From NCBI RefSeq assembly GCF_030408775.1, contig NZ_CP047210.1, positions 2,325,604-2,389,603 on the forward strand: DNA of 64,000 nucleotides. Reading direction: 5' to 3'. Source of the DNA: Corynebacterium fournieri (GTDB lineage: Bacteria > Actinomycetota > Actinomycetes > Mycobacteriales > Mycobacteriaceae). Below are positions 3,326-24,855 of this stretch, piece by piece (the first letter of the stretch is position 1; the number at the start of each line of letters is the position of its first letter). Under the pieces are notes generated by a model. It saw only the letters and a list, made by a program, of their open reading frames with translations. It did not search any database and was not told the origin of the DNA. The position numbers and the translations under genes were made by a program.

Positions 3326-5020
3326 TTAGGACAAATCCCACTCCCGCGCCAGAGTCCCCACCAGATATTTCTGACGGTCGGCTATAACTTCAGGTGTCCA
3401 CACGGGTTCCTTCAGCACTTGCGTGGTGAGCGCGAATACCGCCACTCCCTGATCAGAGGTGAAGTATTTGTCCTTCTTCACGGCGAAGTCGTAGTTTTGT
3501 GCTCGAGAATTGGAACGGCGGTTAAGCAGCAGCAAGTTGCCTAAGCGGTGCGTCCACTGCTCCGCGTCCTCCTCGGAGAAGTCTCGCGTCCATTGACTCT
3601 CCTGCGGAGGGGTCTGGGGGAGTACATGCTCGACAGTGATGATGCGGTGGTCGTATGACGCGCCTGGGTCCTGGGCGAGTACCGAATCGAGTCGCAGCAA
3701 AACATACTTGCGCACGCGGGTTGCCAGGTAAAGCTCACCGTCGATGCGGTCGAGCGTCTCTCTTCGCTCGGCATCGGTGAGCTCGAATGCGTCCGCTTGG
3801 AGGCCGTCACCCTCGACGAGCTGTTTCAGCAGCTCCATGTAGCGCTGCTGGCGTGGAGTGGCATAGACCCGCCGCAGCAGCATACTTGCCGCCAATCGTT
3901 CGAGTTTGGCCATGAATTGCACCAGGAATTCGACGTCTTCGCCGTGCTCTTTGAGTGCCCACAAGGCTGGCGGGCGCCAGTCGTCGTTATCAAGCTGGTC
4001 CAACCGCTTCAGCCAGTTGTTCAATTCCTCCCACCGCGGGTCGTCACCGTGAAAGTCTTGTGCGAGCATGCGGATATCCGCTTTCGCGTACGGCTCGAGC
4101 ACCTCGCGGATGAAGCCTTTCCCATTGTCGGGCAAGTATGCATTGAGCACTTGGTCCGGAAACTCTTGCAGCAGCCCCTTTACGGCGCGAGTACGGGACT
4201 TTATGGCGCGGATGTACAAGATCAGGTCACCGAACTCCTTGCGCCCGAGTTCCTCTTCGAGGTTCTCCCACACCTCAGCATGCTGCTGCTTCTCATGTTC
4301 AGCAATCGCGCCCACCACCTGGGATTTGAAGATGTCCTGGGGAGAGAGCGGCAGGCCCCTGGCATTCATCACTGAGAAGATCCGGTACGCGCTATTCAGG
4401 TCCGGTGTTGACACCGTCACGAGGTACGCGCGACCTCCAATGAGTTTGAACAGCTGAGTCAACTGCTCTTGATCCCACCCGGTAAGTTCCTCATGCAGAG
4501 CCCGTGCGTTGTTGCGGATTTTCTTTTGGGAATCGGTCTCAGGAGCGTTGTCGCTCAGACCGATGAGCTCCTGAGTTGCACCAGCCGTTTGCACATAATC
4601 ATGAAAGAACCGTGTGTCTCGGGGTCTAATGCGCAGACGCGGTTTAGATGGGACGTTGTCCCATTCCAACGCTTCGGTCTCAATGAGCTTATGGATTGAC
4701 TGCTGCAAGCTCTGGTTGTCGACGAGATCACGCAATAGCGCCAGAAGAATCGTCAACGTTGTGAGTCGTTGCTGCCCGTCAATGACCTCAGAGCGTGGAT
4801 TACCTGGGGCTTTGACCAACACAATCGAGCCGAGGAAGTACGGCTCCTCCGTGTCACGCTCCAGTGCACCAGACAAATCAGACAACAGCTGGAGAGATTC
4901 CTCGACGCCCCAGGCGTATGGGCGCTGGTACTCCGGAATCTCGAATTCGTGATCGCCGGAATGAAAGAGCTTGCCTACGCTGATCTCTTTCGCTTCGATC
5001 CGGTTGAGTTCACCCGACAC
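3326..5020 (-). CDS. DUF262/DUF1524 (GmrSD-type) nuclease
   Basis: The N-terminal DUF262 domain shows IPEYQRPYAW (about residue 27), FLGSIVLV and the nucleotide-binding motif DGQQRLTTLT (about residue 80). The C-terminal DUF1524 His-Me-finger domain has ITVEHVLPQ (about residue 465) followed by HRLGNLLLLNRRSN. The family includes the type IV restriction enzyme GmrSD, which cuts modified DNA and uses NTP hydrolysis; it is frequent in defence islands. The GTG start at 5020 has GAGGAG 6 bp upstream and gives RIEAKEISVGKLF near the N-terminus, the usual family beginning; a longer TTG start at 5068 is less likely. It lies 70 bp downstream of the UvrD-like gene on the same strand and probably belongs to the island transcript. 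Confidence 0.85.
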   Translation of the reverse strand: MSGELNRIEAKEISVGKLFHSGDHEFEIPEYQRPYAWGVEESLQLLSDLSGALERDTEEPYFLGSIVLVKAPGNPRSEVIDGQQRLTTLTILLALLRDLVDNQSLQQSIHKLIETEALEWDNVPSKPRLRIRPRDTRFFHDYVQTAGATQELIGLSDNAPETDSQKKIRNNARALHEELTGWDQEQLTQLFKLIGGRAYLVTVSTPDLNSAYRIFSVMNARGLPLSPQDIFKSQVVGAIAEHEKQQHAEVWENLEEELGRKEFGDLILYIRAIKSRTRAVKGLLQEFPDQVLNAYLPDNGKGFIREVLEPYAKADIRMLAQDFHGDDPRWEELNNWLKRLDQLDNDDWRPPALWALKEHGEDVEFLVQFMAKLERLAASMLLRRVYATPRQQRYMELLKQLVEGDGLQADAFELTDAERRETLDRIDGELYLATRVRKYVLLRLDSVLAQDPGASYDHRIITVEHVLPQTPPQESQWTRDFSEEDAEQWTHRLGNLLLLNRRSNSRAQNYDFAVKKDKYFTSDQGVAVFALTTQVLKEPVWTPEVIADRQKYLVGTLAREWDLS

Positions 5021-5090
5021 GCTGCCGCTCCTCTGCAATCCGTCAAGGCTCTGAACACCTACCGGCAATTGTATTAGCGCCCGAAACCCC

Positions 5091-7442: not shown

Positions 7443-7446
7443 GGTG

Positions 7447-10400
7447 TTACTCCTTACCCAGCAGCGCGGCCGGGATCGTCTCAGCCGAGAGTGTATCGGG
7501 GTACAGCAGCGTCCAGCCTTGCTCGCGAAGCTTGGCTTCGGCACCCGCGTAGGAGGCGTCCTGCTCGATCAACAGCGCGATGCGCAGCTCGGTCCAGGAC
7601 ACGGCGGTGGGGATGGATCCGACTTCTTCGCCAATTTCTTTGGTGGGTGCTGCGCCGGCGTGGACAAGAGTGCGCAGCGCCGCCAGCACCTCGGATTCGT
7701 CCTCGAACTCCTCGATCGCCTCGGCCCACAGCCCACTCACCGCGGTCTCCACGGCACTTTGCTTCGCGACGTCCTCCGGTTCCTCACCGGAGACCCTTTC
7801 CCCGTCACCAACGTCGACCGTGACGGTGTTGTTTGCCAGCCACATGATGTTGGCAAAGCGCAGGAAGTCGCGCCAGTTGTCGTCGGTGATGGAACCGGGC
7901 GAAAGCGCGTTGACGCACAGCCGCTGCGGAACCAACTCGTTGTTGATGGCTGCGGCCTCCAAGTGGATCTCGTTGCGGAACGTCAACCGAGCGCCACCGG
8001 GGATACGCGAGGGCACCACGGAGGTGCTGAGCATGTTCAACAGGGCTTTATCCATGAGCGCGTACGAGGACCGTTCCGGCTCCGCCAGGTAGGTCAGCAG
8101 CTGCGTGATGGGGGAGGCTTTCAAAAACTCGATCTCGTTGTTACCGATGCCCTCCATGGCGCGCGTGCGCTTCTCCGCTTTCTCGCTGACCCACGCCGGC
8201 TGGGCTTCACCGAATTGCATCTCCTTGGCAAACCAGTCCAGGCCGGCGTCGGTGACGTTCCACGGCAACACCTGTTTCTCGGCGAAGTGCAAGCTGTTGC
8301 GCTTGCGTATGTCGCTGGGGAAGCGGTAGTGCTGCGCACTGAAGTGGAACGCGGCACCGTCGGTGTAGACCGCCACCGGGCGCAGCGGACTGCCGCGGTG
8401 CTGGAACAGGAAGTCCGGGCGCGTGTAGCCGTAGTCCACCTGCTCGCGCATGGACCACTCCTCGCCGGAGGCGAACGTGATGTGCCACTCCACACCGCCA
8501 CTGTTGGGGATGTCCTTGACCGTGGCATTGCGGGCCTCGAGCGCGTCACGCACCATCTCGCGGAAGCGCACCTCCAGGTTGGAGGCGTGGTCCAGCTTCG
8601 GGGCTTCCGTCTTCCACTCCCACTGCACCGCCAGCGGATCCAGGTCTGGTGCGGGGTGATCCTGGTCGCTCAGGATGGCACGCAGCGCGCGCTCGGCGGC
8701 GGCGCGGGAGGTGACCTCGATGTGCGGGGTAAGGGTGTACGGCAGCAGGCAGTCGGGGCACGCGAGGCGCTCATCGGCTGCGCAGTCGCAGTCCCGGACC
8801 TTGATAAAGGCGCGCTCGAGGAGCTTGCGCACGTCTTCAGGTTCGGCGAACTGCGAGAGATACCCGGTGCCGCCCGGAACATTGTCGTGCATGAGCAGTG
8901 CTTCCACCGTCTTGCCGGTGGCGTCCGGCACGCGCACGGTAACCACGTTGAGGTGGTCCGGGTCGCCACCAAGGACTTCCTTGAATCCCAGCTTGATCGC
9001 GGCAGTCAGGCTCGGGATGGTGGCGTTGTCGCCGGCGGTCAGCTGCACCGGCACGTGCAGCAGCACACCCTGGGTTTGCAGCGTGCGGTTCAGCGCCACC
9101 GTGACAGATTCTTCCTCGCGGGCGTTGCGCTTTGGACACCACGGCCGGTGGTCCCACTTGGAGTTCGCGCCCGCCTGCGAGTCCAGGTGGCCGCAGTAGT
9201 TGCACACGGTGAACAGGGGAGCGTCCACCTCTTTGCCCGCCAGCATCTTCTTCGTAGCGGGGCCGCGGCCCAGGTTGAACCAGCTGAGGTTCACGTACCG
9301 CAAATACTTTGCGCCGAAGCCGTGGGAGAGGAACCATTCCCCGCCATGGCCAACCTCCGGCACGGCGAAGCTCAATGCGGTGTGGAAGAACATGGTGAAG
9401 CGGTCTTCGTGTGAGCCGTCGATGGTTGCGCGCGCACGGTCCACCTCTGCGGAGACGCGGCGCATGCGCACCGTTTCCAGGATCTGGCCTTTGTCCGCGA
9501 ACGCGCCCGCGCCGCACTCCGGGCACGCACGCGGTACAACACCGGCCTCGATCTTTTCGCCGTAGGAGCACTCCGGGCACAGACGCCACTGCTCCACATC
9601 CGCACCACCCGCGCCGAGCTCAACGGCGTCCACCTTGGCTGCGATGCCGCGGGCGTAGAACGTGTTGCCCGGCGCGAGTTCCGTCAGCGCCGACGACACG
9701 CCGCGGGAGAGCTCGAAGGTCTCCGGGTCGATCTGCATGGACGACGGGTTGAGTTGGGAAACCACCACCGCCAGCTCCACGGAGTCATCCAACAGCGTGA
9801 AGTTGGGCAGCAGCCCGTAGCGCTCCATGGAGCTGATCCAGAACTCGTCGAGCAGGATGTCGTTGTAGTCGCGCCCGACGCGCCGCCATGCCGCTTTGGT
9901 GCTGCGCTTTTCCCGCTCCAGCTCCGGGTCGGCGTCCTCGGTGCCCGCGTTGGGGTCCACCTTGGCCTCGAGTTCTTTCACCCGGTCGGCGAGTGTGTCC
10001 CACCGTGTCTTCAGCTCGGATTTTTCGGCCTCCCATAATTGGCGGGTGCGCTCGAGCTCGCCGCGCAGCGAGTCCGTGCCTTGGCCGCAGGCCCACTCGC
10101 GCACGCCTTCGACGGTGGCGGCGTCGACGTGCCCGCCTGCCACCGTGGCCAAGAACGCGTCCACGCGCTCATCCACCCCGGCCGCGATCTCTTCGCCGAG
10201 CACCTCCACCAGCGACCGCTTGCGGCTGCTAAACACGTCTTGCGCGTGCGCCACCTCCAGCCCGTTCGCGGCAAACGCCATGGTGTCCACCAGGTACGCG
10301 GTGGTCTGCCTGCGCAGGATCTCGGTGGCGGAGAGGAACACCGCCGGCGGCGTCACCGCCCCCGCGATCACGGACAGCGGTTGGTTCAGCTTCGGCAGCA

Positions 10401-13400
10401 TCGTGCCGCGGCCTTGCACGAACGCGAGCACCAGCGAGTTGCCGGTCAGGCGCCCGGCGCGGCCCACGCGCTGCACGTACGAGGACACAGACGTAGGCAG
10501 CGAAGCGAGCATGACGGTGGACAGGTCGCCGATGTCGATGCCCATCTCCAGCGTCGGCGTTGCCACCAGCACGTTCGGCGCGTTCGGCGCTTCGTCGCCG
10601 GTACCGCGGAACGCCCGCTCGAGCGCCAGCCGCTCCTCCTTGGGGATCAGGCCGGTGTGCTCGCGCGCCACCACCGCGCGTGGGGTGGTGGAGGTGTACA
10701 GCCGCGAGTAGTAGTTCTGCTCAATGCTTTCCGTCTCAAGCTCGCCGAGGCAGCCGGGCGTCGGGCACGGCAGCCCGGTGAGCAGGGAGCGGGTTTGCTT
10801 GTCGACGCCCAGGGGTCCCCGGCACACCCCACAGTGCACCATTGCTGCGTCGTCCTCGTGGCGGACAACCACGCTCTCCGGCGCAAGCGCGTAGATGGTG
10901 CCGCCGGAATTGGTGGACACCGCTTGGATCGCCCCTTCGCGGGCGAGCACCTTGAACACGGTGGTGAGCACGTTGGTGGCGTCGTGGGTGGAGATCCCCA
11001 GCACTTTCGACGTCCACCGCGCGTACCTACCGCGCGGGCTGCCCAGGGGAGTGATCCCACGGTCCTTGTCGTCCAACGCGGCGCCTGAGCGCGGGAACTC
11101 CGGCGCTCCGCCCTTGGGAAAGCTGGGCATGCCGTGGGACTTGGCGTAGCGGTTGTGCAGGCGCCAGGAGTTCGCGTCGTGTTGCAGGTAGGTCTTCAAC
11201 ATCGGCGAGTACACGCCACCGCGGTCGCGCACCTGCTCCAACAGACCCCGCAGCCAACGCAGCCGCAGCGCCGGCGAACCGGCGTCGGCGACCTCGAACA
11301 GGGCCTCATCCACATGCTGCAGCGCCTCCTCGGCCGCTGCCAACAGGACCGCATCATCCACCTGCACCGACGGCACCAGCGTGCCAGTGGAGACCAGCGA
11401 GCGCGGCAGGTGCGCACGCTGCCCGAACTCGAGCGCCGCATCCAGCTCCAGGCGGTGCAGCGCAGCAGTGGTGGCCTCTCGACGGGCTGCGGTATCAGCG
11501 TCCTTCGCCCAAAACGGCGTGAACGTGGTGGTCTCCGCCACCTCCGGCGGCAGCAACTCGAAGCGCGCACGCGCCGGGTCCGCGGCCTCATCCGCGCGCG
11601 CGAGGATCCGCAGCGGCATCTGGGCAAGCGACACCTCGTCGTCGCCGACGACGCTGCGCATGAGCGTACGGATGCCGAACGCGCGCGCCCTGGACTGCAC
11701 GAAGCCAGCGCGGTGCGCCGCGTCCTGCACGGAGTCCGCGAACACCAGCGTCTTCTTCTCGTTCTGTTCCAGCGACGGCATGCCGAACAGGTTGGACAGG
11801 CCCACCGACAACAACGTGGCCACGCGCGAGCCGATGTAGCGGATGGCATCCGCCTCGCCGCACGACGGGCACGTCTGCTCGCGCGCGTACTCCTCGGCGT
11901 TGAGCCCCGTGTACGTGAGCACCGGCACGGAGCGGCCCTCGGCGAGGTCTTCCTCGGTGGGCTCGGGGCGCGACAGCATGCTGGATTCCGGGTGGAACCA
12001 CATCAGGGCGCGCTGGCCGTCTTCGTCGCCGAGCTGGGTCAGTTCCAGGTGGTTTTTTACTGCTTCGCGGTGTTCGGCTGTGGCGTCGATAAGCGGGCGC
12101 ACAAGCTCCGGCTTTTCAATGCTCGCGCGGCGAATCTCCGAGCCATTGAGCACCACCGCATCCGTGCCGGGCTCGAGTGCCGTCATCCACCCGGCGCGAC
12201 CGCATGAGCGGCAGTACGTGGCCGGCAGCCACACCCCGGCATCGTCGCCGCCGAGCTGGCCGTCGTCCGCGAACCGGAACACCTCGCCGTCCTCGGTGGG
12301 TGTCACGGCACGTTCGATGCGGGAGACCTCTCGCACCCACAAGTGCGTTTCCACACCCGGCAGGCGCTTGCCGCCGAAGCCGTACGCCTTGCCCGCAAGC
12401 GCACGCAGCTGCGCCACGGCGGTGAGCAGGTGGGTGACGAACTCGCGCGTGGTGGTTTCTCCAAGACTGCGCACCACAATCGGGTCGAACATGGCCTCCG
12501 GCAGCGACTTGTCACCCTCGGCCTCACGCCGGATCAAGGACTTCGCCGGGTTGGCCTGCTCCAGCAGCTTCTCAGTCAGCGGGTGCACCGCGTACGCGGC
12601 GATGGTGGTCTTCAGGTCCGCGCCGGCGTCCACGCCCCACAGTTGCGTGCGGAACACGTCCAGCACCACATCGGCGTGGTCGCGACCGGAGTCGTCGCTG
12701 GCAATCGCGTCCACGATGCCGCGCAACTGATCAATGTCGGGGGAGAGGGCAGCGGTGTGCGCGCCGAACGTCTGCGCGATCTCGTCGGTCCACTCCGTAT
12801 ACGTCAACGTCTTTTCGCCCACCAGCGCTTCCGGCGTGAACGTCTCGCCGAAGATGGTCTGGGCGAAGTCGAGCACCTTCTGCGTGTCGTTCTTGCCGCC
12901 GAGCGTTGCCGAGGTCGCCACCGGCGTGACCCGCCCCAGCGGGTTCGAGGCGAACTCGCCGGCGAAGCCTTCCGGTTGGTGCTGCTTGAGCATGAGCCCT
13001 AATCGACGCAGCAGCAACGCCACGTCCGTACCCTGCGCGCCGTCGTAGGTGTGGAACTCATCCAACACCAGGTACTGCAACGAGGTTGCCGAGCGCTTCC
13101 AGATCTCCCGGTTATCCTCACGCAGCAACAGCTGGTCCAGCATCTTGTAGTTGGTGAGCAGGATGTCCGGCGGGTCCTGGCGGATCTGGTCACGGTCATT
13201 GATCAACGAATCCTTGGTGACCTTCTTCACGCTCCCCGTCGCCTCACCCGTGAAGATCCCGGCAGTGACACCGGCGAGCGCAGGCTCGTTGGTAATCAGC
13301 TTGGCCAGACGGTCCGCCTGGTCATTCGCCAGCGCGTTCATCGGGTACAGCAGCAGCGCCTTGGTGCCGCGCTGCCCCTCAGCGCGAGCCCGCGCGGCAT

Positions 13401-13770
13401 GGTCCAGCACCGGGTACAGGAAGGACTCCGTCTTACCGGAGCCGGTACCCGTGATCACCAGCGTCGGCTCCGGACGCCGCGCCCCCTGCTCATCCCTGCT
13501 GCGCAGCCTGCGGAACGCTTCCGCCTGGTGGTGGTACGGCGTGAACCAGTCGGGCATCCAGTCCAGGATCTCGTCCCACCCGATCGCCCGCGCGTACGGC
13601 AACCGCGTGCGCACGTACGGCCCGTGGAACATACCCCGTTCCGTGTCCTCCAAAAACGCCTTCAGCGCGTTGGTCGTCTCCGGGTTCGCGAGCGAAAACG
13701 CAGTGGCCAAATACTCGGAGACACCGCCGAGGACGTGCTCCGATGCGTGGACGGGGATGAGGGTAGACAT
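7447..13770 (-). CDS. Giant DEAD-type helicase with DUF1998, DrmA-DrmB-like
   Basis: A 2107-aa protein. The N-terminal SF2 helicase core has Walker A TGTGSGKTESFLYPV (about residue 105), LLYPMNALANDQADRL, the DEFH Walker B box (about 240), TSATLGG, and motif VI YVQRVGRAGRL (about 1100). Several zinc motifs follow: CRSCGRAGW, CPSCGEAD, CPECSYGE...CPECGAG, CNYCGHLD. DUF1998 is seen at MHDNVPGGTGYLSQF (about 1625) with CDCAADERLACPDC. Residues 1730-1850 (DYGYTRPDFLFQ, AVYTDGAAFHFS, DIRKRNSLH) suggest a degenerate PD-(D/E)XK-like fold. In DISARM the helicase (DrmA) and DUF1998 protein (DrmB) are separate; here one chain carries both. ATG 13770 lacks a Shine-Dalgarno sequence; TAAAGT 7 nt upstream hints at a leaderless start. 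A TTG start at 13818 is less likely. Confidence 0.88.
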   Translation of the reverse strand: MSTLIPVHASEHVLGGVSEYLATAFSLANPETTNALKAFLEDTERGMFHGPYVRTRLPYARAIGWDEILDWMPDWFTPYHHQAEAFRRLRSRDEQGARRPEPTLVITGTGSGKTESFLYPVLDHAARARAEGQRGTKALLLYPMNALANDQADRLAKLITNEPALAGVTAGIFTGEATGSVKKVTKDSLINDRDQIRQDPPDILLTNYKMLDQLLLREDNREIWKRSATSLQYLVLDEFHTYDGAQGTDVALLLRRLGLMLKQHQPEGFAGEFASNPLGRVTPVATSATLGGKNDTQKVLDFAQTIFGETFTPEALVGEKTLTYTEWTDEIAQTFGAHTAALSPDIDQLRGIVDAIASDDSGRDHADVVLDVFRTQLWGVDAGADLKTTIAAYAVHPLTEKLLEQANPAKSLIRREAEGDKSLPEAMFDPIVVRSLGETTTREFVTHLLTAVAQLRALAGKAYGFGGKRLPGVETHLWVREVSRIERAVTPTEDGEVFRFADDGQLGGDDAGVWLPATYCRSCGRAGWMTALEPGTDAVVLNGSEIRRASIEKPELVRPLIDATAEHREAVKNHLELTQLGDEDGQRALMWFHPESSMLSRPEPTEEDLAEGRSVPVLTYTGLNAEEYAREQTCPSCGEADAIRYIGSRVATLLSVGLSNLFGMPSLEQNEKKTLVFADSVQDAAHRAGFVQSRARAFGIRTLMRSVVGDDEVSLAQMPLRILARADEAADPARARFELLPPEVAETTTFTPFWAKDADTAARREATTAALHRLELDAALEFGQRAHLPRSLVSTGTLVPSVQVDDAVLLAAAEEALQHVDEALFEVADAGSPALRLRWLRGLLEQVRDRGGVYSPMLKTYLQHDANSWRLHNRYAKSHGMPSFPKGGAPEFPRSGAALDDKDRGITPLGSPRGRYARWTSKVLGISTHDATNVLTTVFKVLAREGAIQAVSTNSGGTIYALAPESVVVRHEDDAAMVHCGVCRGPLGVDKQTRSLLTGLPCPTPGCLGELETESIEQNYYSRLYTSTTPRAVVAREHTGLIPKEERLALERAFRGTGDEAPNAPNVLVATPTLEMGIDIGDLSTVMLASLPTSVSSYVQRVGRAGRLTGNSLVLAFVQGRGTMLPKLNQPLSVIAGAVTPPAVFLSATEILRRQTTAYLVDTMAFAANGLEVAHAQDVFSSRKRSLVEVLGEEIAAGVDERVDAFLATVAGGHVDAATVEGVREWACGQGTDSLRGELERTRQLWEAEKSELKTRWDTLADRVKELEAKVDPNAGTEDADPELEREKRSTKAAWRRVGRDYNDILLDEFWISSMERYGLLPNFTLLDDSVELAVVVSQLNPSSMQIDPETFELSRGVSSALTELAPGNTFYARGIAAKVDAVELGAGGADVEQWRLCPECSYGEKIEAGVVPRACPECGAGAFADKGQILETVRMRRVSAEVDRARATIDGSHEDRFTMFFHTALSFAVPEVGHGGEWFLSHGFGAKYLRYVNLSWFNLGRGPATKKMLAGKEVDAPLFTVCNYCGHLDSQAGANSKWDHRPWCPKRNAREEESVTVALNRTLQTQGVLLHVPVQLTAGDNATIPSLTAAIKLGFKEVLGGDPDHLNVVTVRVPDATGKTVEALLMHDNVPGGTGYLSQFAEPEDVRKLLERAFIKVRDCDCAADERLACPDCLLPYTLTPHIEVTSRAAAERALRAILSDQDHPAPDLDPLAVQWEWKTEAPKLDHASNLEVRFREMVRDALEARNATVKDIPNSGGVEWHITFASGEEWSMREQVDYGYTRPDFLFQHRGSPLRPVAVYTDGAAFHFSAQHYRFPSDIRKRNSLHFAEKQVLPWNVTDAGLDWFAKEMQFGEAQPAWVSEKAEKRTRAMEGIGNNEIEFLKASPITQLLTYLAEPERSSYALMDKALLNMLSTSVVPSRIPGGARLTFRNEIHLEAAAINNELVPQRLCVNALSPGSITDDNWRDFLRFANIMWLANNTVTVDVGDGERVSGEEPEDVAKQSAVETAVSGLWAEAIEEFEDESEVLAALRTLVHAGAAPTKEIGEEVGSIPTAVSWTELRIALLIEQDASYAGAEAKLREQGWTLLYPDTLSAETIPAALLGKE

Positions 13771-13900
13771 GGGGGTAACTTTATCTGGGTTCAGACAAGC
13801 GTAGACAGCGATGCGCAACCTTAACTTTTGTCTTTACAGTCGGGCTACGCCGTGGAAGACGCGTAAATCCTCAAAAGAATATCGACGCGTCGTAACAGAA

Positions 13901-14866
13901 CTAGTTGCTGTCGTTTTCTCTAACTGCACTCGTATCTATACGTCGGGAAACGTTCGTCTCTCCAAAAATGTGGTTCTTGAAGCCGTCATGTACGTAACGG
14001 ATGATGTTTTGCGGTTCCGGAAACAAAGTGGAGAAGTTGATGTTAAGTCGGTCAAGCTGCCGTAATATCCTAGACTTGGATTCACCAGTCACAATGATGC
14101 GCGGTTCATGAATCTGCAATGTCGTATCTCGCCCAGTGTCCTCGCCGATGCAACCACGATGAGGCCTAACAAACAAGTTTTGTTCTGCGCGCCTGTCTAT
14201 CTCCAGCCCAGCGATTAGGAAGGCACCGCTCTGCGCTTTTAATCGCTCGTTCGTGTGCATGGGCCTGACAGCTGTGAAGCGTTGCGTCAAGGCTTCAAGA
14301 GGTTCCGAATGTTCAATGAGAGCGCTTCGATTCTTAGTGGAATCATACCCCACTGCTTGCATCAGCGAACCCTCTGAGGTTGGACCCCAGGTGCCGTTTA
14401 TGGCCCATCGCGAGAGCCATTCGACCTGCGCAGAGTCCTCCCTGTACACCGATTGATTCGGGAAAACTACCACTTCCCCATCAACTTCCTCGGACCCACC
14501 GCAGGCGAAAAATAGCGCAACCAAAGGATTCGTTGTCACATCCAGTAACCGTGTGGGTAGACCATAGTGCTGCAATTTTGCAAGGATTTGAAACGCACTC
14601 AGCCGTTCGAACTCCGTCGGCATCAGGCGTATGACTTCCTGAATCATCAGCTGTTCATTGGTATAGAAAACTGATTCGCCCTCAAAGTCCCGATATATTG
14701 CAGGTTCGGGTTGATATAGCTCGTCATTGTGCCCTCGGAACAAACTCCAGCGACTCACGCTGGGATCCCGCAACTCAGGCCCGTAGATAGCCTCTAGTTC
14801 GTCGATAACCCGAATGAAACTCTGCACGCTGTCAATCCAGTTGTATGGCAATATTTTTGTAATCAA
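13901..14866 (-). CDS. FRG-domain protein, 321 aa
   Basis: The FRG domain is named for its conserved F-R-G triplet, seen here as SRWSLFRGHNDELYQPEPAI (about residue 40), followed by the family's KLQHYGLPTRLLDVT (about residue 110) and NPLVALFFACGG. FRG proteins are common in defence islands; their biochemical role is mostly unknown. The C-terminal part carries a possible second conserved segment (SGAFLIAGLEIDRR). Codon use is clearly more AT-rich than in the flanking helicases, so the gene arrived with the cargo at 13.9-17.1 kb. It starts 15 bp after the coiled-coil gene and ends about 130 bp before the giant helicase gene. Confidence 0.82.
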   Translation of the reverse strand: MITKILPYNWIDSVQSFIRVIDELEAIYGPELRDPSVSRWSLFRGHNDELYQPEPAIYRDFEGESVFYTNEQLMIQEVIRLMPTEFERLSAFQILAKLQHYGLPTRLLDVTTNPLVALFFACGGSEEVDGEVVVFPNQSVYREDSAQVEWLSRWAINGTWGPTSEGSLMQAVGYDSTKNRSALIEHSEPLEALTQRFTAVRPMHTNERLKAQSGAFLIAGLEIDRRAEQNLFVRPHRGCIGEDTGRDTTLQIHEPRIIVTGESKSRILRQLDRLNINFSTLFPEPQNIIRYVHDGFKNHIFGETNVSRRIDTSAVRENDSN

Positions 14867-15480: not shown

Positions 15481-16389
15481 TTAATCATTTCCGTATTCAG
15501 GAAAGGCGACAGGATCCTCATCTGAAAACGTCCCGAACGACTTATTCAACCCTGCAAGCTCGATCAAGTCGTAATCGTCTAATATCAAGTAGCATTCGTC
15601 GCAAAAGAATCGGTCCGGCAAAAAGCTAACCTCTATCGCGGGGAACTCCGGATCGTCCAGATTTAAGCTTTTACTCTCAGCCTCATCGGAGCCGACAATT
15701 CCGTATCGCTCACACGCCGGGCATTGCGCTTCGGTCTCATAGTACGAACGGGAAACCCATCTCCTGTTGGCCTCCCACCGAGCATTCTCTCCAACAGAGG
15801 CCATTCCACTTTGGCGTCGTTGGTACCGAGACTGAGCAGAAGCAAGAAGTGCTTCGTAATGAACTTCAAGATTTCGTTTGTTAGCCGCAAGCAGCGATTC
15901 AATCTTGTTTGCCATTGCCGAACCAACGAAATCATCAAATGTTCGTTGACCGGACAGCAGGAGAACATTAAAAAGAGACCAGATCCTAGGCCACCAAATC
16001 TGATTGGGCAGAAGGAGTATGTCTACGCCGGCCCCGTGCAGATAGTCATTTCTAGCCTCTGCGATTTTCAATGCTTCCTCACGGTTGAATGGACGCAATG
16101 CGCTTCCACACCTAGTGAAGATTGTAGAGGCCTGCGCAGTTACTGCTTTGTTTGATTCTTTGAGTTCTAGGGCTTGAAGCAATTGAGATCCACCATCTCT
16201 TTGGGGATCGACCACCAGTGCAGGGGAGATCTCTGCTAGAGCCCACTTTGCGGCTTGCTCAAGAGAGAGCGCTGCCCAGAACCGCCGTTCATCCTCGCTT
16301 CTTCCTTCGCCTGGTTCAGTGGCACGGTTAATGAATAGAATGGCTTTATTCCAGAAGCCCTCGGCGGCAAAGGGATTCACCGTTGACAC
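15481..16389 (-). CDS. HEPN-domain protein with C-terminal zinc ribbon, 302 aa
   Basis: The N-terminal half is helical and contains RFWAALSLEQAAKWALAEI and the motif ARNDYLHG (about residue 113), which fits the HEPN ribonuclease signature R-x4-H with a polar residue after the arginine. The C-terminal half has CPAC (AQCPACERYG) and CDEC (FFCDECYLIL), together a probable zinc ribbon. HEPN proteins are frequent metal-independent RNases or non-catalytic scaffolds in antiviral and toxin systems. The start overlaps the end of the dioxygenase gene by 13 bp, so the two are co-expressed. Low-GC codon use marks it as cargo. RNase activity is inferred only from the motif. Confidence 0.7.
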   Translation of the reverse strand: MSTVNPFAAEGFWNKAILFINRATEPGEGRSEDERRFWAALSLEQAAKWALAEISPALVVDPQRDGGSQLLQALELKESNKAVTAQASTIFTRCGSALRPFNREEALKIAEARNDYLHGAGVDILLLPNQIWWPRIWSLFNVLLLSGQRTFDDFVGSAMANKIESLLAANKRNLEVHYEALLASAQSRYQRRQSGMASVGENARWEANRRWVSRSYYETEAQCPACERYGIVGSDEAESKSLNLDDPEFPAIEVSFLPDRFFCDECYLILDDYDLIELAGLNKSFGTFSDEDPVAFPEYGND

Positions 16390-17170: not shown

Positions 17171-17422
17171 TCAACCTCTCAAACTCTTGTACGCCTCCCG
17201 CATATCCGCCTCCCGGTCCAGCTGCCTAAACGGGTACTCGTACACGTACTCCACACCCGACTGCGGATGCGTCCACGTCCGATCCGCCACCGACAACTCC
17301 GCGCCGTACTTCAACTTCGCGTCCGCCTTCACAATCTCCTTCGGCACCTTCCGACCATTCGCATCAAACCGATCCTCCTGGTCATAACGCCGCATCACCG
17401 GAAACTGCGTCCGGTAAATCAC
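17171..17422 (-). pseudogene. Relic of a methylase C-terminus
   Basis: This 83-codon frame (IYRTQFPVMRRYD..., VPKEIVKADAKL, ELSVADRTWTHPQSGVEYVY, EYPFRQLDREAD) is a diverged copy of the last 80 residues of the methylase just upstream (LYETQFPVQKRAD, ELSSSDRTWVHPQSGTTYVF, ELPFRVMNRSED). It has no plausible start of its own and begins at the homologous point 20 bp after the methylase stop. Its GC content matches the 5' part of the methylase gene rather than the 3' part, suggesting it is the original end of the gene, displaced when a new 3' segment came in. Confidence 0.8.
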
Positions 17423-17441
17423 GCACGGCTAAAAGGTCTGC

Positions 17442-20400
17442 TTACGCTTCTGCAAATTTCCACCACGCTTTTTCCAGGTCTTCGCTTCGATTCATTACTC
17501 GGAATGGCAACTCGAATACGTAAGTAGTGCCCGACTGAGGATGAACCCAGGTTCTGTCAGATGAACTTAATTCGGCCCCAGTGATAGATCCGCTCCGCTT
17601 CAATACCTCTGGCGGCACTTGCCTGCCATTAGCATCCAACACGATTCTGTTGTCAGCTCTCTTTTGGACGGGAAACTGAGTTTCATAGAGCGCAACAAGA
17701 TCAGAACTTGTCAACCCCAGTTTATGCGCCATGATGGCATCAATTTCATTCTGAGCCCTGTACCTATCGCTGGCCTTTCGAAATGGAGTGTCATATTGCC
17801 ACTCTTCCCCCGTCATTTGAAGCCACAACGGAGCGTAAGCGTCTGTGAGTGCGTTTAGCCGCAAGAATAGGCCACCCATGATCTTGTCGAGCTTTGCATC
17901 TTGAACGAATGGGAGTGACAAGACGGAGGAAGGGTAGAGGTTTGAATACCCAGCTGAGCGAACGATGAAATCCATTGCCAAAGTGCTCAGATTAGCTGCA
18001 GCCACTAGGTCTTCATAACGCCGTACCGGGCCGACGCTTTGAATCCCATTAATGTGGGCAGCATCAGGCGGCAGGATAGCTACAAATAGTGACCTTGCAT
18101 TCTTAACCTGGGCCATTAATCGCCAAGAAATTCGGTAGCAATCGAGAACTGGAATTGTCGAACCAGAAGCGGCGTCTTTCCAACTTCCATAACTCTCCCG
18201 CGTCACGTCTAATGAACGCGCATATTCCGAGTTCGGAACGGCGTTATGTTCAAGAGCCTCGAGATCAATATCGACATATTTCGCGGCACCGCTAACCGCC
18301 ACGCACTCTTGCGCCATTGGCAGTCCGATTCTGATTTGCCGCCCTTTCATGACCACCTGATTCCAAGCGTCCGCCTTACCGCTCCTTCGATAGTCGAAGA
18401 CGCCTTTGCGCCTGTCGACGGATTCATCCCATCCTCGCGATGACTGAAGACCCAACGTGGTCATAGAAGGAAAACCCGTATAAGCGGAGAGCAATTCTTG
18501 CGAAAGCTTGTTTACTGAATAGACGATGCGAGCCTCACGAGGTGTCGACTCTTCGTCCTGCCAGAACGAATTCCAGGCTTCCAACACTTTGAGGTCAACC
18601 GTATTGATCCTCGACCGATGGGGCGAGAGGTCCCATTCGCCGTCATCTGTCTTAAAGCCAGGCTGGGGTCCACTTCCATCATGGGAGAGTGAGGCCAGTG
18701 CGGTACGCGGATGATACAGAGACGATGCATTTAGAAAATTAGGGCTATCTTGCATTTGCGCCGAAACATTGACGCTAAAAGTCTGCTTACTGTCCGGCCC
18801 CTCGAACAACGGAAGACGGTTCTCGAACTGCCAGTGGCGCCTCAGACGTAAGTATGCTGCGCGCCGTAGCGACGCAGCCTTCTTTTCAGTGAAGTGGGAT
18901 TCGGGATGGATCAGGGAGGTGACCCCGCGCACCCTTTCGTTACGCCAGGTCCGCTCTATAAACCCGCGGTACAAATCCGGCTGTTGCCCGATGAGGTGCG
19001 GATACCGGGTCACATCGGTAAGCACCGCAGATGTCGCTACTGACTCGCCGAGGCCTCGATAGACCACCTCACGCGTCTGTTCATCCTCGTTCCATCTCTC
19101 CCGACGCGCCTTCTTCTCCGCCTGCGTCGGCTTGTGAGCGAGGGAGAACCAGGGATCGGCCTCTGAGTACAACGCGTCTAGATCGGTTCGAGGCCGCACC
19201 CACGGCGGGTTGCCCACCTGCAGGTCAAAGCCGCCGCGAGCGAAGACGGCCGCGAAGTCCAAGTCCCAGTGGAAGAAACCCTGGTCGGCGGCGACGGACT
19301 GCACCACGCGCAGCCACCGGTGGTTCTCCAGCACGGTCTCGATCTTGCGGGCACCGGAAAGGCCAATCTCGGTGCGCTCAAGCTCGACCAGTTCGTCCCA
19401 GGTGTTGGCGCTGGCAAGGCGGATCTGGCTAGTGTCGCGGGCTTGGGTATCCACGCCAAGGACGTCGGTAAGCGTGGCGAGCCACTCATCGAGGTCGGGG
19501 AGGGCATCCACCTCGGTAAGCGGCCAGAAGGTCAGGGCGTTCCAGGCGTCCATGATGAGACGCAGTCTGAGGTAGGCGCCCTCGACGTCGTGAAGCAGCT
19601 CACGCTCGACCTGCTCGCGGCGCACATTCTTCGAGTTTCGCTCCGGGATTAAACCCCACAGGTCGATGTCGCGGAGAATCTGGTCTTCGGCAATGCGCAT
19701 TTTGGACAGGGTGATGGTCCAGAGCGTCTCCACGCGAGTGGCGAGGTTGGTTAGCTTCTTCGCCTGCTCCTTTGTGGGTGCCTTGCCGGTGACGGATTTC
19801 TTCCACGCCTTCATGGCCTTGACCTCGTCGGCGGCCAGCTTCTTCAGGTCCTTGGCGTCCGCTGCCGCACCCCAGGTGGCGGATGGCAGGAGGAACTGGT
19901 GGATGCGGCCAGCGGCGTAGGTGTCACGGGTCTCGCCGGCATCGATGGCAGCTGCGAGGTTTTGCACCGGCTCGCGGCGGGGGACCGCGGAAAGCCACTC
20001 GCGTTTCTTCAACTGCGCAACTGCGTAGGTGGAACGCAGCGCACCGATGAGCGAGTTGCCGCGACGCAGGTGCAGGCCGAACCACGGGGCCTTGAGCTGC
20101 GGGGTCATAGTGTCCAGCCACAGGGAGATCTCCGCGAGCTCCACGGCGGTAGGGTTCAAGTCCACGCCGTAAACCTGGTGCAGGGCGATGTGCGCTTTGA
20201 TCCTTTGTAGCTCCACCGCGCGTTTCTCCGGGTCCACCTGCGTGTCCAGCTCGTCCTCACGCAGCTTGAGGTAGAGCTCCGCGAGCTGGCGCACAGCCTC
20301 CACAGCGAAGGCGCCGGAGCCCATGGCGGGCTCGCAGATGGTCAAGCTGAGCACGTCCTCGGCAGCTTCGATGCGGCCTTCCTCCTGCAGGACCTCGATG

Positions 20401-21995
20401 GCCTGGCCGACGGTGAACTCCGTGAGCACCTGCGGGGTGTAAAAGGACGCGGAACGCTCCCGGTCGCGGCTGGACTGGCGGAACACAAACGAGCCAGCCG
20501 GGTGGAGGCGGCGCGTCTTGGCGGTGCCGCCTTCCTCCATCTGCTTGGTCTCCATGACAAAGCTGTCCTGCGGGACCGTGTCCGCGGCACCTGTGGGCAG
20601 GACCCAGGAGCCCTTGGAGGCATCGCCCTTCGGCGCGACCTCGTACAGGTCTTCCTGGGCGATGAAGCCGTGGTAGGACATCAAGCCCTCGTAGACCTGG
20701 CCCAGCTCCGTTACACCAAGGGTGGCGTAGGAGATGAAGCCGCGGTCCTTGCCGGCGGAGACCTTGGACAGCAGCAGGTTCTGCAGCACGTTGGTCAGGG
20801 CGGCGTTGGAGAGCCTGACTTCGTCGATAAGCCAGGTGGCTTCGCGCTTGAACAGGTCGGCCTCCAGGTTGCGGAAGGTCAGGCCCTGGTTCTGCGCGTC
20901 CTCGTCGGCGTCTGCGGTCTCCAGCGGGTCGTGGCCGTCGTTGACCTGGGTGAACAGCAGCTGCAGCGAGTCATACAGGTGGGTACCCCGGCGCGCCTGG
21001 TCCGTCACTGGGGGAGTGAGGATGTGATCGCGCAGGCGGTCCAGACCGTAGCCAGCCACGTACTCGGGTGTGCCGGTGGGCAGGATGGCCAGTTCCGGGG
21101 AGGCTTCTGCGAACAGCAGGAAGAGGATGCGGTAGAGGTAGCGCAGGGACTGGTGCGCCAGCTCGTTGCCATCGACTCCGTCGATGGGGAGGTGCTGCTC
21201 CCGGCGGCGGTTAAGCACGTCGTTGCCGATGATCTCGATGGATTCGCGCACCGCGTCGCGCAGGTCGCCGGAGACTTTCACCGCGTGCTGCTGGGATTCC
21301 TCGCGGGTGTCCGCCCACCAGGTGGTGCCGTCAGCGGCGCGCTCCAGGTTCTCGCGTGCGAGGATGACGGCCACGCGCTCGAGCTCGCCGGCCTTCTTCG
21401 TGTCATTACGCTCCACCGCCAACTGCAGGTTCACGGCCAGGTAGCGGCCCAGCGGCCAGGATTCGCGCTCCGCAAGCAGCGCCCACGGGCCCGCGAGGAC
21501 CACGATGAACTCCGGCGGCTCGGCGGCGAGGAAGAGGTCTCCCACCAGCTTGGACACCTTGGCTTTCTCCGGGTCCTTGCCTTCTGCGGCGACGCCGCCG
21601 ACAACGGGCAGGGAGGTCAGGTCCTCCTCAGTGGTGTCCTCGCTCGGCTCGGCGCTGATGACCACCAGGGTGCCCGCGTTGCCCACACAGCCCTGGTAGG
21701 TGAACGTGTCCCCGGCGCGGGTGTAGCGCTGCTCCGCCGGTGTGCCGTAGCTGAACGCGGTGCGCACCAGGGCGTCGGTTTCATTTTGCGTCGCAAAGCC
21801 CTTTTGCAACTCGCCGCGCTCGGCTTGGAACCGCTTGACGGGGGAGAGGGTTCCCGTTTCCTCCTCCAGCTGCGCCCATTCCTTCGTGCGGGCCTTCACG
21901 CGTTTGGTAAAGGACTCGCCTTTGGTCTCGTCGGTGGTGAAGTAGTGGTCGCTGATCCACTCGTCGACGTTGATGATTGAGTCGTAGCTAGCCAT
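17442..21995 (-). CDS. DrmMI/PglX-type N6-adenine DNA methyltransferase, mosaic
   Basis: A 1517-aa class 1 methyltransferase. Motif I is CEPAMGSGAFAVEAV (about residue 555) and the catalytic motif IV is NPPW in DLQVGNPPWVRP (about residue 929); the C-terminal third should carry target recognition. This matches DISARM DrmMI and the related PglX/BREX enzymes that mark host DNA. ATG 21995 follows the helicase stop by 4 bp with AAGGAG in front, so translation is coupled. Codon use and GC fall sharply after about residue 980-1015 (near position 18.9-19.05 kb) to the 3' end, while a high-GC copy of another C-terminus follows. The target-recognition part was therefore probably exchanged by recombination. 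Confidence 0.88.
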   Translation of the reverse strand: MASYDSIINVDEWISDHYFTTDETKGESFTKRVKARTKEWAQLEEETGTLSPVKRFQAERGELQKGFATQNETDALVRTAFSYGTPAEQRYTRAGDTFTYQGCVGNAGTLVVISAEPSEDTTEEDLTSLPVVGGVAAEGKDPEKAKVSKLVGDLFLAAEPPEFIVVLAGPWALLAERESWPLGRYLAVNLQLAVERNDTKKAGELERVAVILARENLERAADGTTWWADTREESQQHAVKVSGDLRDAVRESIEIIGNDVLNRRREQHLPIDGVDGNELAHQSLRYLYRILFLLFAEASPELAILPTGTPEYVAGYGLDRLRDHILTPPVTDQARRGTHLYDSLQLLFTQVNDGHDPLETADADEDAQNQGLTFRNLEADLFKREATWLIDEVRLSNAALTNVLQNLLLSKVSAGKDRGFISYATLGVTELGQVYEGLMSYHGFIAQEDLYEVAPKGDASKGSWVLPTGAADTVPQDSFVMETKQMEEGGTAKTRRLHPAGSFVFRQSSRDRERSASFYTPQVLTEFTVGQAIEVLQEEGRIEAAEDVLSLTICEPAMGSGAFAVEAVRQLAELYLKLREDELDTQVDPEKRAVELQRIKAHIALHQVYGVDLNPTAVELAEISLWLDTMTPQLKAPWFGLHLRRGNSLIGALRSTYAVAQLKKREWLSAVPRREPVQNLAAAIDAGETRDTYAAGRIHQFLLPSATWGAAADAKDLKKLAADEVKAMKAWKKSVTGKAPTKEQAKKLTNLATRVETLWTITLSKMRIAEDQILRDIDLWGLIPERNSKNVRREQVERELLHDVEGAYLRLRLIMDAWNALTFWPLTEVDALPDLDEWLATLTDVLGVDTQARDTSQIRLASANTWDELVELERTEIGLSGARKIETVLENHRWLRVVQSVAADQGFFHWDLDFAAVFARGGFDLQVGNPPWVRPRTDLDALYSEADPWFSLAHKPTQAEKKARRERWNEDEQTREVVYRGLGESVATSAVLTDVTRYPHLIGQQPDLYRGFIERTWRNERVRGVTSLIHPESHFTEKKAASLRRAAYLRLRRHWQFENRLPLFEGPDSKQTFSVNVSAQMQDSPNFLNASSLYHPRTALASLSHDGSGPQPGFKTDDGEWDLSPHRSRINTVDLKVLEAWNSFWQDEESTPREARIVYSVNKLSQELLSAYTGFPSMTTLGLQSSRGWDESVDRRKGVFDYRRSGKADAWNQVVMKGRQIRIGLPMAQECVAVSGAAKYVDIDLEALEHNAVPNSEYARSLDVTRESYGSWKDAASGSTIPVLDCYRISWRLMAQVKNARSLFVAILPPDAAHINGIQSVGPVRRYEDLVAAANLSTLAMDFIVRSAGYSNLYPSSVLSLPFVQDAKLDKIMGGLFLRLNALTDAYAPLWLQMTGEEWQYDTPFRKASDRYRAQNEIDAIMAHKLGLTSSDLVALYETQFPVQKRADNRIVLDANGRQVPPEVLKRSGSITGAELSSSDRTWVHPQSGTTYVFELPFRVMNRSEDLEKAWWKFAEA

Positions 21996-21999
21996 TGAT

Positions 22000-24855
22000 C
22001 TACTGCTCCTTCGGCAGGACGAGTACGAGGGGGCGGATAAGTTCACGGTCCGGTTCAAGCGAGGCGATCAGCGCGCGTTCCTCCGCAATGAGGTTTTCAG
22101 ACCGGCCCACGCGCAGCATGGTCTGGCTGTCGTCCTTGGCGTGCTGCCAGCGGTCCGCGCGGTCGATCCAGTACTCGATGCGGCTGGTGGCGTGATTGCG
22201 GGCGGCGGCCATCATCGGCTGCAGCTGGTTGCCCGCCACCTCAACGGAGGAGGCCACGAGCTCCTGGGCGTTGTCCGGCAGGGTCAGTGTCTCCGGGTTG
22301 ATGGCGTGCTCCGTCAGACCGATGCCGCGCAGCCACGCCACCGGGTCCTCGATGGTCTTGGGCAGCATGCCGCCGGCGACGGTGACAAAGGCGCGGGAGA
22401 CCACCTGGCCGCGCTTGTTGGTCAGCGTGGCCATGAGCAGCACGGTGGGCATGTCCACCTCGCCCGCGATGGCGGTGATCTGGCCGGCGGAAAGGGAGGC
22501 GAGTGCGCGATCCGTCGCCCAATCCGTCACCGGGTGCAACGGGCCGAGGAAGTGCGCCTTCGGCCACGTGGAGCCGTCCTGGCCGGTGCGCGCGTTGCGC
22601 AGGACGGTGTTGCCCACGGCGGTGTTGGTAGCCAGGAGGAAATTCTCCCGCACCTTGCGGTCCGCTAGGTAGTCCTGCGGCAGGATGTCCAGGCGGCGGC
22701 GCAGGTCTTCCGGGGGAGCGAGCTCCGCCACGCCGTTGTTGCCCAGCTCGTAGGCCACACCGCCCGCGCTTAAGGGCCTTTCCGGGGCGCCGTAGAAGGC
22801 CTCCTTCAGCGCGTCTTCCAGGTAGCTGATCTCCGAGGGGTACAGGCTGGTCGTGTGCGGTTGGGCTGCGCCCGGTGCCGGTTCTTCCGCAGCATCGAGC
22901 TCAAACCCGTAGCCCGCCAAGAGCGCGTCGATGAGGTCCTCCTCCGATTGCGCTTCGGTGGTGGCAACCTGCTCCGGGGTCTTCACCACATCATCGAAGC
23001 CGGCCTGGTTCTGGATAACCTTGCGGATCTCATCCTCCTCACCGCTGACGGTGTGCTTGCCAATGAGCGAGCCGACGTCGCCAAGCAACGCATGCGCCTC
23101 GTTTTCGCGGTTGATCAGCTTGGTTAGCACGTGCAGCTCGCCGACGTAACCGCCCTGCTTCGTATCCAGCAGGAGTGCAGCGATCTGCGGCGACTCCATC
23201 TGCCCGTAGCGGTCCACGCGGCCGTTGCGCTGCTGGATGCGGATCAGCGACCACGGGATGTCGTAGTGGATCAGGTTGTGGCACAGGGTGTGCAGGTTCA
23301 CGCCTTCAGACGCCACGTCGCCGGTGATCAGGATGCGCAGCTTGGAGTCTTCGCGCTTGAATTCGTCTACAAGCCGCATCTGCTCCTCGTCCGAGAGGCC
23401 GCCGTGCATGACCTCCACCGCACCGGCCGGCATCTTCAGGTCCTTGGTCAGGTTCTCTTTGAGCCAGTGCAGCGTAGCGACGCGTTCCGAGAACACCACT
23501 GCACGCGTTTTCTTGCCCTTGCCCACGCCGATCTCCTGGAGGTAGTTCACCAGCGCGGCGTATTTGTTGGAGTTCTGGCGGGTGACCTTGGCGTTGAGCT
23601 GCGCCAGGCGCCCCAAGGCCTGGCGCTGTTTCGTGTCCGCGGCCGGGACGCGCTTGAGCCGGTTCTCGACGGTCTCGCCGAGCGCGGCGGGGGAGGAGAG
23701 GAAGGCCTTGACCAACGTCCACGGGAACAGGCGGTCCTGCGCCGGGTTGGCGTTGGTGTGGATCCAGGTCTGCTCCAGCTCGGCGGCCGCGGCGTTTTCT
23801 TCTGCGGACGCCTCCACCGGGATGTTGATCGGGTCCTTGCGCTCCGCCCACTGCTCGCCGACCACACTGGCCACCTCGTCGGAGTGGCGGTGGCGGCGGA
23901 TGAGCAGGCGGGACACCGCATCCTTGTCGATGGTGCCGTCCGGCAGCACCGCCGTCGGATCCAAAAGGCGCAGAATCTCCTTGAAGCTTTCCGGGTCGCC
24001 GTTGTGTGGGGTGGCGGAGGCGAGAAGCAGCGCCTCCGTGGTGGGGGCGAGGGTGCGGGCGAGCTCGTTGTTCTGGGTGCCCACGTTGGTGGCGTTGTGG
24101 ATCTCATCAATCACCACCGCGTCCCAGCGCACCTTCTCCAGCTGCGCGCGGTACTTCGGGCTCTTCAGCGTGTCCATGGACACGATCACGCGGGGGAAAT
24201 ACGTAAACGGGTTGCGGCTGGCCGGCAGCATCTGGCGCACGCGCTGGATGCCGGTGGAGTCCAGGCGCACCAGCGGGATGGCAAAGCGCGACCACATCTC
24301 CTGCTGGAACTGCTCCATGATGTGCTTCGGGGTCACCACCAGGATGCGCTCGCCGCGGCCGCGGCGGATCAGCTCTGACAGGATCATGCCGATCTCGAGA
24401 GTTTTGCCCAGGCCGACAGCATCGGCGATGAGGACGCGGGGCCGAAGGTTGGCGTCGCTAAGCGCCTTGCGCACGGCGGTGAGCTGGTAATCCAGCGGAT
24501 CCATGAGCATCTGATCCGCCACCGACAGCTCCTCCTGGTAGAGGGGCACCGGGATTTGGCGCAGGGTGGTCTCCAGCCACAGGCGCGTGGTGCGGTAGCC
24601 GGGGGAGCGGTCCGGCACGACCTCCACCTTGGCCGGGTCGAAGACCTCCACGTTGTCGAGCGCGGTGTAGAAGCTCGCGGTGGTGTCGCGCACATAGTCC
24701 GACAGGCCGCGGACCTTGAGCAGGTAGCCGTCGACGGACTGCGTAACGCTGGTGATCAGCCACAGCTCGTCGCGGACCTTGACCATCAGGCCCGGGGCGT
24801 AGGCGGTGGAGGTGTTCGGCGCTTGCTGTGGCGCATCCTGCGTGAGCGAAGACAT
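22000..24855 (-). CDS. SNF2-type helicase, DrmD-like
   Basis: A 951-aa SF2 helicase with Walker A ADAVGLGKTLEIGMIL (about residue 145), DEIH in VVIDEIHNATN (about 248), LLASATPHNG, and C-terminal helicase motifs EVMHGGLSDEEQM, TGDVASEGVNL and IQQRNGRVDRYGQ (about 490-555). DISARM class 1 systems begin with such an SNF2-like gene (drmD) followed by the methylase, exactly as here. It is the promoter-proximal gene of the island. A parS site lies about 80 bp upstream of its start. Confidence 0.9.
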   Translation of the reverse strand: MSSLTQDAPQQAPNTSTAYAPGLMVKVRDELWLITSVTQSVDGYLLKVRGLSDYVRDTTASFYTALDNVEVFDPAKVEVVPDRSPGYRTTRLWLETTLRQIPVPLYQEELSVADQMLMDPLDYQLTAVRKALSDANLRPRVLIADAVGLGKTLEIGMILSELIRRGRGERILVVTPKHIMEQFQQEMWSRFAIPLVRLDSTGIQRVRQMLPASRNPFTYFPRVIVSMDTLKSPKYRAQLEKVRWDAVVIDEIHNATNVGTQNNELARTLAPTTEALLLASATPHNGDPESFKEILRLLDPTAVLPDGTIDKDAVSRLLIRRHRHSDEVASVVGEQWAERKDPINIPVEASAEENAAAAELEQTWIHTNANPAQDRLFPWTLVKAFLSSPAALGETVENRLKRVPAADTKQRQALGRLAQLNAKVTRQNSNKYAALVNYLQEIGVGKGKKTRAVVFSERVATLHWLKENLTKDLKMPAGAVEVMHGGLSDEEQMRLVDEFKREDSKLRILITGDVASEGVNLHTLCHNLIHYDIPWSLIRIQQRNGRVDRYGQMESPQIAALLLDTKQGGYVGELHVLTKLINRENEAHALLGDVGSLIGKHTVSGEEDEIRKVIQNQAGFDDVVKTPEQVATTEAQSEEDLIDALLAGYGFELDAAEEPAPGAAQPHTTSLYPSEISYLEDALKEAFYGAPERPLSAGGVAYELGNNGVAELAPPEDLRRRLDILPQDYLADRKVRENFLLATNTAVGNTVLRNARTGQDGSTWPKAHFLGPLHPVTDWATDRALASLSAGQITAIAGEVDMPTVLLMATLTNKRGQVVSRAFVTVAGGMLPKTIEDPVAWLRGIGLTEHAINPETLTLPDNAQELVASSVEVAGNQLQPMMAAARNHATSRIEYWIDRADRWQHAKDDSQTMLRVGRSENLIAEERALIASLEPDRELIRPLVLVLPKEQ

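Follow-up and report, generated by a model that had tools for sequence, protein, structure and literature searches.

A divergent specificity-domain end and a native-type 3' fragment at the armB methylase of an ARMADA Type II operon in Corynebacterium fournieri

Introduction

How does the methylase of a defence operon come to end in a sequence unlike that of its relatives, with a fragment resembling the relatives' ends directly behind it? The question is raised by a stretch of 64,000 nucleotides from Corynebacterium fournieri (the window; G000:C1:2325604-2389603), which was taken from a genome of 2.39 Mb on a single contig. The window carries an ARMADA Type II operon, with the gene order given in the passages of PMC12458937 that define this type: armA, armB, armC and armD follow each other on the minus strand from position 24855 down to 5091, and cargo genes lie between armB and armC (Table 1). 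An earlier note on this DNA had proposed that the specificity-determining 3' end of the methylase gene, armB, was exchanged by recombination and that an 83-codon fragment behind it is the old C-terminus. We consider it probable, with moderate confidence, that two rearrangements met in this operon, namely the loading of armB tails together with cargo and the replacement of the target-recognition domain (TRD) and C-terminus of armB, and that the piece cut by the replacement is likelier to be a displaced copy than armB's own end.

Results and discussion

The end of armB is divergent

armB has 1538 codons from a TTG start, although the true start may be an in-frame ATG at codon 22. Over codons 1-970 the protein is 82-90% identical to nine relatives and 71-72% identical to two others (G049 and G201), whereas the last ~460 codons are divergent, with identities to these 11 relatives of 35-38% in the TRD and 46-52% in the C-terminus. 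Among themselves, nine of the 11 relatives share 55-75% in the TRD and 85-98% in the tail. The identity step is not confined to the TRD: its left flank is native, and its right flank, the C-terminal domain, is foreign as well. DNA similarity to five relatives stops at window positions 18826-18802, placing the break at ~18.8 kb, slightly further into the gene than the 18.9-19.05 kb of the earlier note. The drop in GC content described there is present (0.67 at 19.1-19.4 kb and 0.48-0.55 from about 18.8 kb to the armB stop), and the GC content at third codon positions (GC3) falls from 0.85 in codons 1-1050 to 0.53 in codons 1060-1538. Low GC was rejected as proof of a swap in its own right, since the last ~480 codons of armB are also GC-poor in ten cargo-bearing relatives (0.55-0.59) and in three relatives with inverted copies (0.50-0.54); it is the identity profile that does show the swap. 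The shared GC dip would also fit vertical descent of a divergent armB whose end is GC-poor, but we give this almost no credence, as the same nine relatives that are so close over codons 1-970 have tails only 49-52% identical to that of the window.

Judged from these sequence comparisons, the specificity-domain end of armB has been replaced by a divergent version. The predicted TRD has a fold match to the TRDs of type I S subunits (solved structures searched with the armB sequence yielded no match at E 0.01), and the new TRD would change the DNA motif that armB methylates. A donor of the foreign segment was not found in any set searched: the best identities were 41% (TRD) and 55% (last 148 codons) at the armB loci of 46 other Corynebacterium genomes, 40% in 397 genomes of the order and 42% in 394 genomes of the class (the last two samples overlap), and plasmids gave no DNA match and at best 30% at the protein level. 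The survey of 242 genomes of the genus described below used a tail profile, with the window's tail included, and not the foreign segment itself.

The fragment is of the native type

The fragment is a separate 83-codon open reading frame (17171-17422, minus strand) about 20 bp beyond the armB stop; the earlier note had placed both reading frames correctly. It has a GC content of 0.59 and a GC3 of 0.77, and it aligns to the last 77-79 residues of the window's armB with 51-52% identity (E 5e-20 to 5e-25), which is beyond chance and upholds the alignment of the earlier note. It is much closer to the intact tails of G038 (95%) and G054 (90%) than to the tail of the armB beside it (52%). Of the 14 other tail-matching methylases, 11 have tails more similar to the fragment (65-95%) than is the tail of the window's armB, and the three exceptions (G064, G071 and G074) come from other genera of the order. 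By sequence, then, the fragment is a native-type armB tail; on alignment with homologues, the relatives do not share the swapped C-terminus and the fragment is not a separate conserved gene. The foreign segment ends about 15 bp after its own stop, and the fragment begins there, at tail position 43. The fragment and a copy in G173 have in common a 1-bp loss, which shifts the frame ahead of a terminal (R/K)F that is kept in all nine intact tails compared.

Displaced armB tails recur in the genus

The tail profile found matches in 49 of the 242 genomes, including that of the window. Layouts were compared at 47 loci (the window and 46 fetched loci), leaving out G278, which has the same score as G279, and G025, the contig of which ends 0.65 kb behind armB. 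At 26 loci armC lies within about 130 bp of armB, and at 12 a cargo region separates the two genes (G000, G173, G038, G163, G255, G150, G234, G101, G211, G054, G049 and G201). Five loci have inverted partial copies of armB, one (G276) has fragments only and three (G194, G241 and G154) fit no layout, having several or split armB genes or an armC outside the stretch. The inverted copies stand tail to tail with armB and contain part or all of the TRD (G044, L089; G136, L104; G261, L108; G196, L113; G219, L114); a further inverted partial copy is present at G628:C1:1069760-1072482.

Displaced armB tails in direct orientation number 14, in eight of the 49 genomes (three each in G038 and G276, two each in G150 and G234, and one each in the window, G163, G255 and G173), and lie mostly among accessory genes between armB and armC, which include CHAT, Ymh, ApeA and FRG proteins. 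Ten copies are disrupted by a stop, frameshift, deletion or truncation (those of the window, G163 and G173, together with G038a, G038b, G150a, G234a, G234b, G276b and G276c) and four are open across the whole tail (G038c, G255, G150b and G276a). The open copies, and the start of several copies near the domain border, would suit a reading in which the fragment and similar copies work as small genes encoding a separate C-terminal subunit of armB; against the damage in the other ten, this seems very improbable. A selected function of any kind for the displaced copies was likewise thought unlikely, with so many of them broken. No swap like that of the window was seen in the armB tails of the seven other copy-bearing genomes; one of them, G276, lacks the intact armB tail that such a judgement needs. 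The three armB 3' fragments of G276 (L086) lie at 5.6, 10.7 and 15.1 kb (oriented) among other genes; neither an intact armB tail nor armC was found in this assembly, which is 77% complete and was not searched genome-wide for the 5' part of armB. The cargo of G150 (L074, about 8.7-11.0 kb) has a D12-type methylase-like gene beside a ParB-like gene, and that of G163 (L071, about 9.6-11.4 kb) a PIN-like/helix-turn-helix pair, both judged by eye from the translations.

Tails and cargo form blocks

In this clade the armB-armC junction harbours accessory genes as well as blocks, each comprising an armB 3' end (~375 bp, from near the distal border of the TRD) and cargo. The proximal block supplies the working C-terminus of armB, and the blocks further downstream carry partial, mostly broken copies. 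One such block is shared by G163 (5621-7838, oriented) and G038 (8965-11182), with 94.6% identity over 2,220 bp; its tail is the working end of armB in G163 and the third displaced copy in G038, and the match starts at the left boundary of the tail, with none before it. In G234 the gene next after armB is a cargo gene of 243 aa, which in G173, G038 and G101 stands behind a 5' piece of armC fused to the last bases of an armB tail. Partial copies of the armC 5' end were also seen within the cargo regions of G173 (L073), G038 (L069), G101 (L068) and G211 (L070).

The left ends of the copies fall into ten junction types, six of which, as assigned by hand, lie within 8 bp of a GAGGAG at codon ~1413; the other four are at -42, -24, +14 and +126, the last being that of the window. 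In simulations with 200,000 uniform draws for each of three lengths (375, 600 and 1,440 bp), no draw clustered as closely. We infer that loading takes place by recombination, in which a new unit of 3' end and cargo would be set beside armB, displacing the older block. A bolder version, which we put forward as doubtful speculation, makes the last ~375 bp of armB the landing pad of a cassette system. Its unit would be an armB 3' end with an accessory defence gene, inserting at one favoured site close to the TRD end, repairing the methylase with its own tail and pushing older units downstream; the system would somewhat resemble an integron, though one that lacks its own recombinase at the locus. 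If so, the ARMADA operon would collect defence genes in order.

History of the locus in the window

Between position 17426 and about 13738 the window shares 96% identity with G173 over the fragment and 99% beyond it, compared with 86% in armA and armB and 73-84% in armC. Because this block is far more similar than its flanks, the cargo block appears to have been exchanged recently, with edges in the 3' end of armB and the 5' end of armC. That the highly similar block runs from the first base of the fragment to the 5' end of armC could mean that the fragment came with the cargo after the TRD swap, with the incoming DNA recombining homologously at armC and illegitimately on the downstream side of an armB that was already foreign. 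The fragment is, however, less like G173 (11 mismatches in 252) than is the rest of the block (28 in ~3,436), and this greater divergence suggests a crossover within the fragment rather than a simple import. We regard arrival with the cargo as improbable; it overlaps with the reading we favour in that the fragment would again be a displaced copy.

G173 has an intact armB, and the matching tail lies about 6.2 kb behind it as a displaced, silent copy. On the favoured reading, a divergent TRD and tail would have replaced armB from codon ~1080 to a point within a native tail, at its position 43, through recombination that was homologous on the left, near codon 1080, and illegitimate on the right. 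The tail cut in this way would more probably have belonged to a copy displaced beforehand, like that of G173, than to armB itself. Three observations argue for this: G173 has the same fragment and downstream genes as a silent copy, the frameshift is shared and such copies recur in seven other genomes. The fragment thus looks more likely to be a scar of cargo loading than the last tail of this armB.

The part of the earlier note's proposal that identified an exchange of the specificity-determining end is borne out by the identity profile and the TRD fold match; the part that took the fragment for the methylase's own old C-terminus is no longer clear. It supposes that recombination introduced the TRD together with a new C-terminus upstream of the fragment and left the fragment behind, and is in keeping with the native type of the fragment, with its being in line with armB and with the right edge of the foreign segment, which lies in the same homologous region; the cargo block could also have joined an intact armB end by recombination within the 3' end. 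Set against this, the armB 3' copy of G173 at the same point of synteny is displaced, behind the 243-aa gene, and so is the copy of G234, where an extra 449-aa gene precedes the shared cargo. The copies of the window and G173 have, moreover, a common frameshift that alters the conserved tail. We thus view survival of armB's own former end as possible but unlikely.

Several points weigh against the displaced-copy account. The order of events is read tentatively, from genomes of other species, and the shared frameshift affects the last few codons only. Partial armB copies are missing from four of the 12 cargo-bearing loci (G211, G054, G049 and G201) and reduced to short remnants in G101, which means that the entry of cargo does not require such a copy. 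The copies of G255 and G234a are closer to the armB of another genome than to their own, which points to a mosaic history. The left ends were assigned by hand, with the decayed copy G038b left out and the junctions taken as independent; raw BLAST extents place the six clustered ends between -9 and +7. No tyrosine integrase (PF00589) or resolvase (PF00239) was found within 70 kb of the locus in ten genomes, other recombinase families not having been sought. Finally, as no donor was found, the boundaries of the foreign segment rest on the contrast with relatives.

Genes of the operon

The features are collected in Table 1. The operon has several components that characterize ARMADA Type II: a BrxHII/RapA-like helicase (armA), a PglX-like methylase with an NPPW motif (armB) and a YprA-like helicase nearest to Druantia DruE with an MZB/DUF1998 domain (armC). 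The first ~320 residues of armD, where ARMADA Type II has an N-terminal RelE-like domain, have no Pfam match at E 0.01. No nuclease family is among the Pfam matches of armB at E 0.01, nuclease motifs and the N-terminal fold not having been examined. A GmrSD-type restriction endonuclease gene adjoins armD downstream (3326-5068, minus strand).

Table 1. Features of the ARMADA Type II operon, in window coordinates.
Feature	Position	Strand	Evidence
armA: SNF2/RapA-type helicase (DrmD / BrxHI-BrxHII-like)	22000..24855	-	PADLOC DrmD 319 bits (best), BrxHI/II up to 192 bits; Pfam SNF2-rel_dom, Helicase_C
armB: PglX-like adenine methylase, chimeric	17442..22058	-	PADLOC PDLC03611 (labelled Type IIG) 1797 bits; Pfam Eco57I, MmeI_Mtase; NPPW visible in translation
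Native armB part, codons 1 to ~1078	18825..22058	-	Protein identity and DNA similarity to relatives
Foreign segment: predicted TRD, C-terminal domain, stop and ~15 bp; GC about 0.51	17427..18824	-	Identity contrast with relatives; TRD fold match
Putative displaced native-type armB 3' end, starting at model position 43 of 125, frameshifted at tail	17174..17426	-	Alignment to relatives' tails
Cargo gene, 235 aa, TauD match limited to 43 residues	16377..17084	-	Pfam; same cluster in G173, G234
Cargo gene, 302 aa, without PADLOC or Pfam match	15481..16389	-	Same cluster in G173, G234
Cargo gene, 115 aa	14882..15229	-	Same cluster in G173
Cargo gene, FRG domain, PADLOC PDC-S15 candidate defence	13901..14866	-	PADLOC, Pfam; same cluster in G173
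armC: YprA/DruE-like helicase with MZB domain	7447..13818	-	PADLOC DruE3 260 bits (best model); Pfam DEAD, Helicase_C, MZB
armD: GajB-like UvrD helicase	5091..7544	-	UvrD (Pfam) and GajB (PADLOC) matches

Comparison with known systems

The locus resembles ARMADA Type II, as the passages of PMC12458937 describe it, in the order of its four genes, its PglX-like NPPW methylase and its YprA-like and GajB-like helicases, and differs in that cargo and displaced armB 3' ends separate armB from armC; in two copies of the operon on Escherichia coli plasmids, armB and armC overlap by one base and there is no cargo. The passages of PMC12458937 do not mention displaced armB copies, and the word 'Corynebacterium' is absent from its main text. 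TRD exchange and ARMADA itself are known, but as far as the accessible passages of the open-licence literature go we found no description of tail-cargo blocks, nor, for ARMADA or DISARM, of displaced ends of methylase genes accompanied by cargo. The locus shows where an ARMADA operon acquires extra defence genes and a new specificity domain. Taken as scars, the displaced tails could reveal, through a comparison of their order, decay and boundaries between strains, the history of accessory defence gene addition. The breakpoint that seems to be preferred gives a lead to the mechanism that can be tested.

In the restriction-modification (RM) specificity genes of Helicobacter (PMC3077401, PMC3983042), specificity domains are likewise reported to be altered by movement of sequence within and between genes; here the C-terminal domain has moved too, and a 3' end has been left behind. 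The pneumococcal tvr (SpnIV) locus, in the account available from PMC6265443, is similar in being an RM locus that is varied by excision and reintegration. It is, however, a dedicated phase-variable type I locus, whereas the ARMADA loci have no PF00589 or PF00239 match within the range searched and their spare ends lack a TRD. The invertible specificity genes, such as hsdS with its DNA inversions (PMC5198162), find a likeness in the five other Corynebacterium genomes with inverted partial armB copies, which have inverted repeats of 88-1746 bp with 72-89% identity. The repeat arms of G044, G196 and G261 are found at the same conserved motif of the TRD region and share one reading phase, which means that an inversion could exchange specificity in these genomes. 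The window's copy cannot switch specificity as an invertible hsdS gene does, because it is direct and has no TRD. It would be a guess that the foreign segment of the window is itself a flipped inverted copy; the inverted copy of G219 spans nearly the same stretch, and nothing ties the two together. The locus marks out armB as a methylase subject to exchange of its specificity domain and, in some relatives, perhaps to switching of that domain by inversion.
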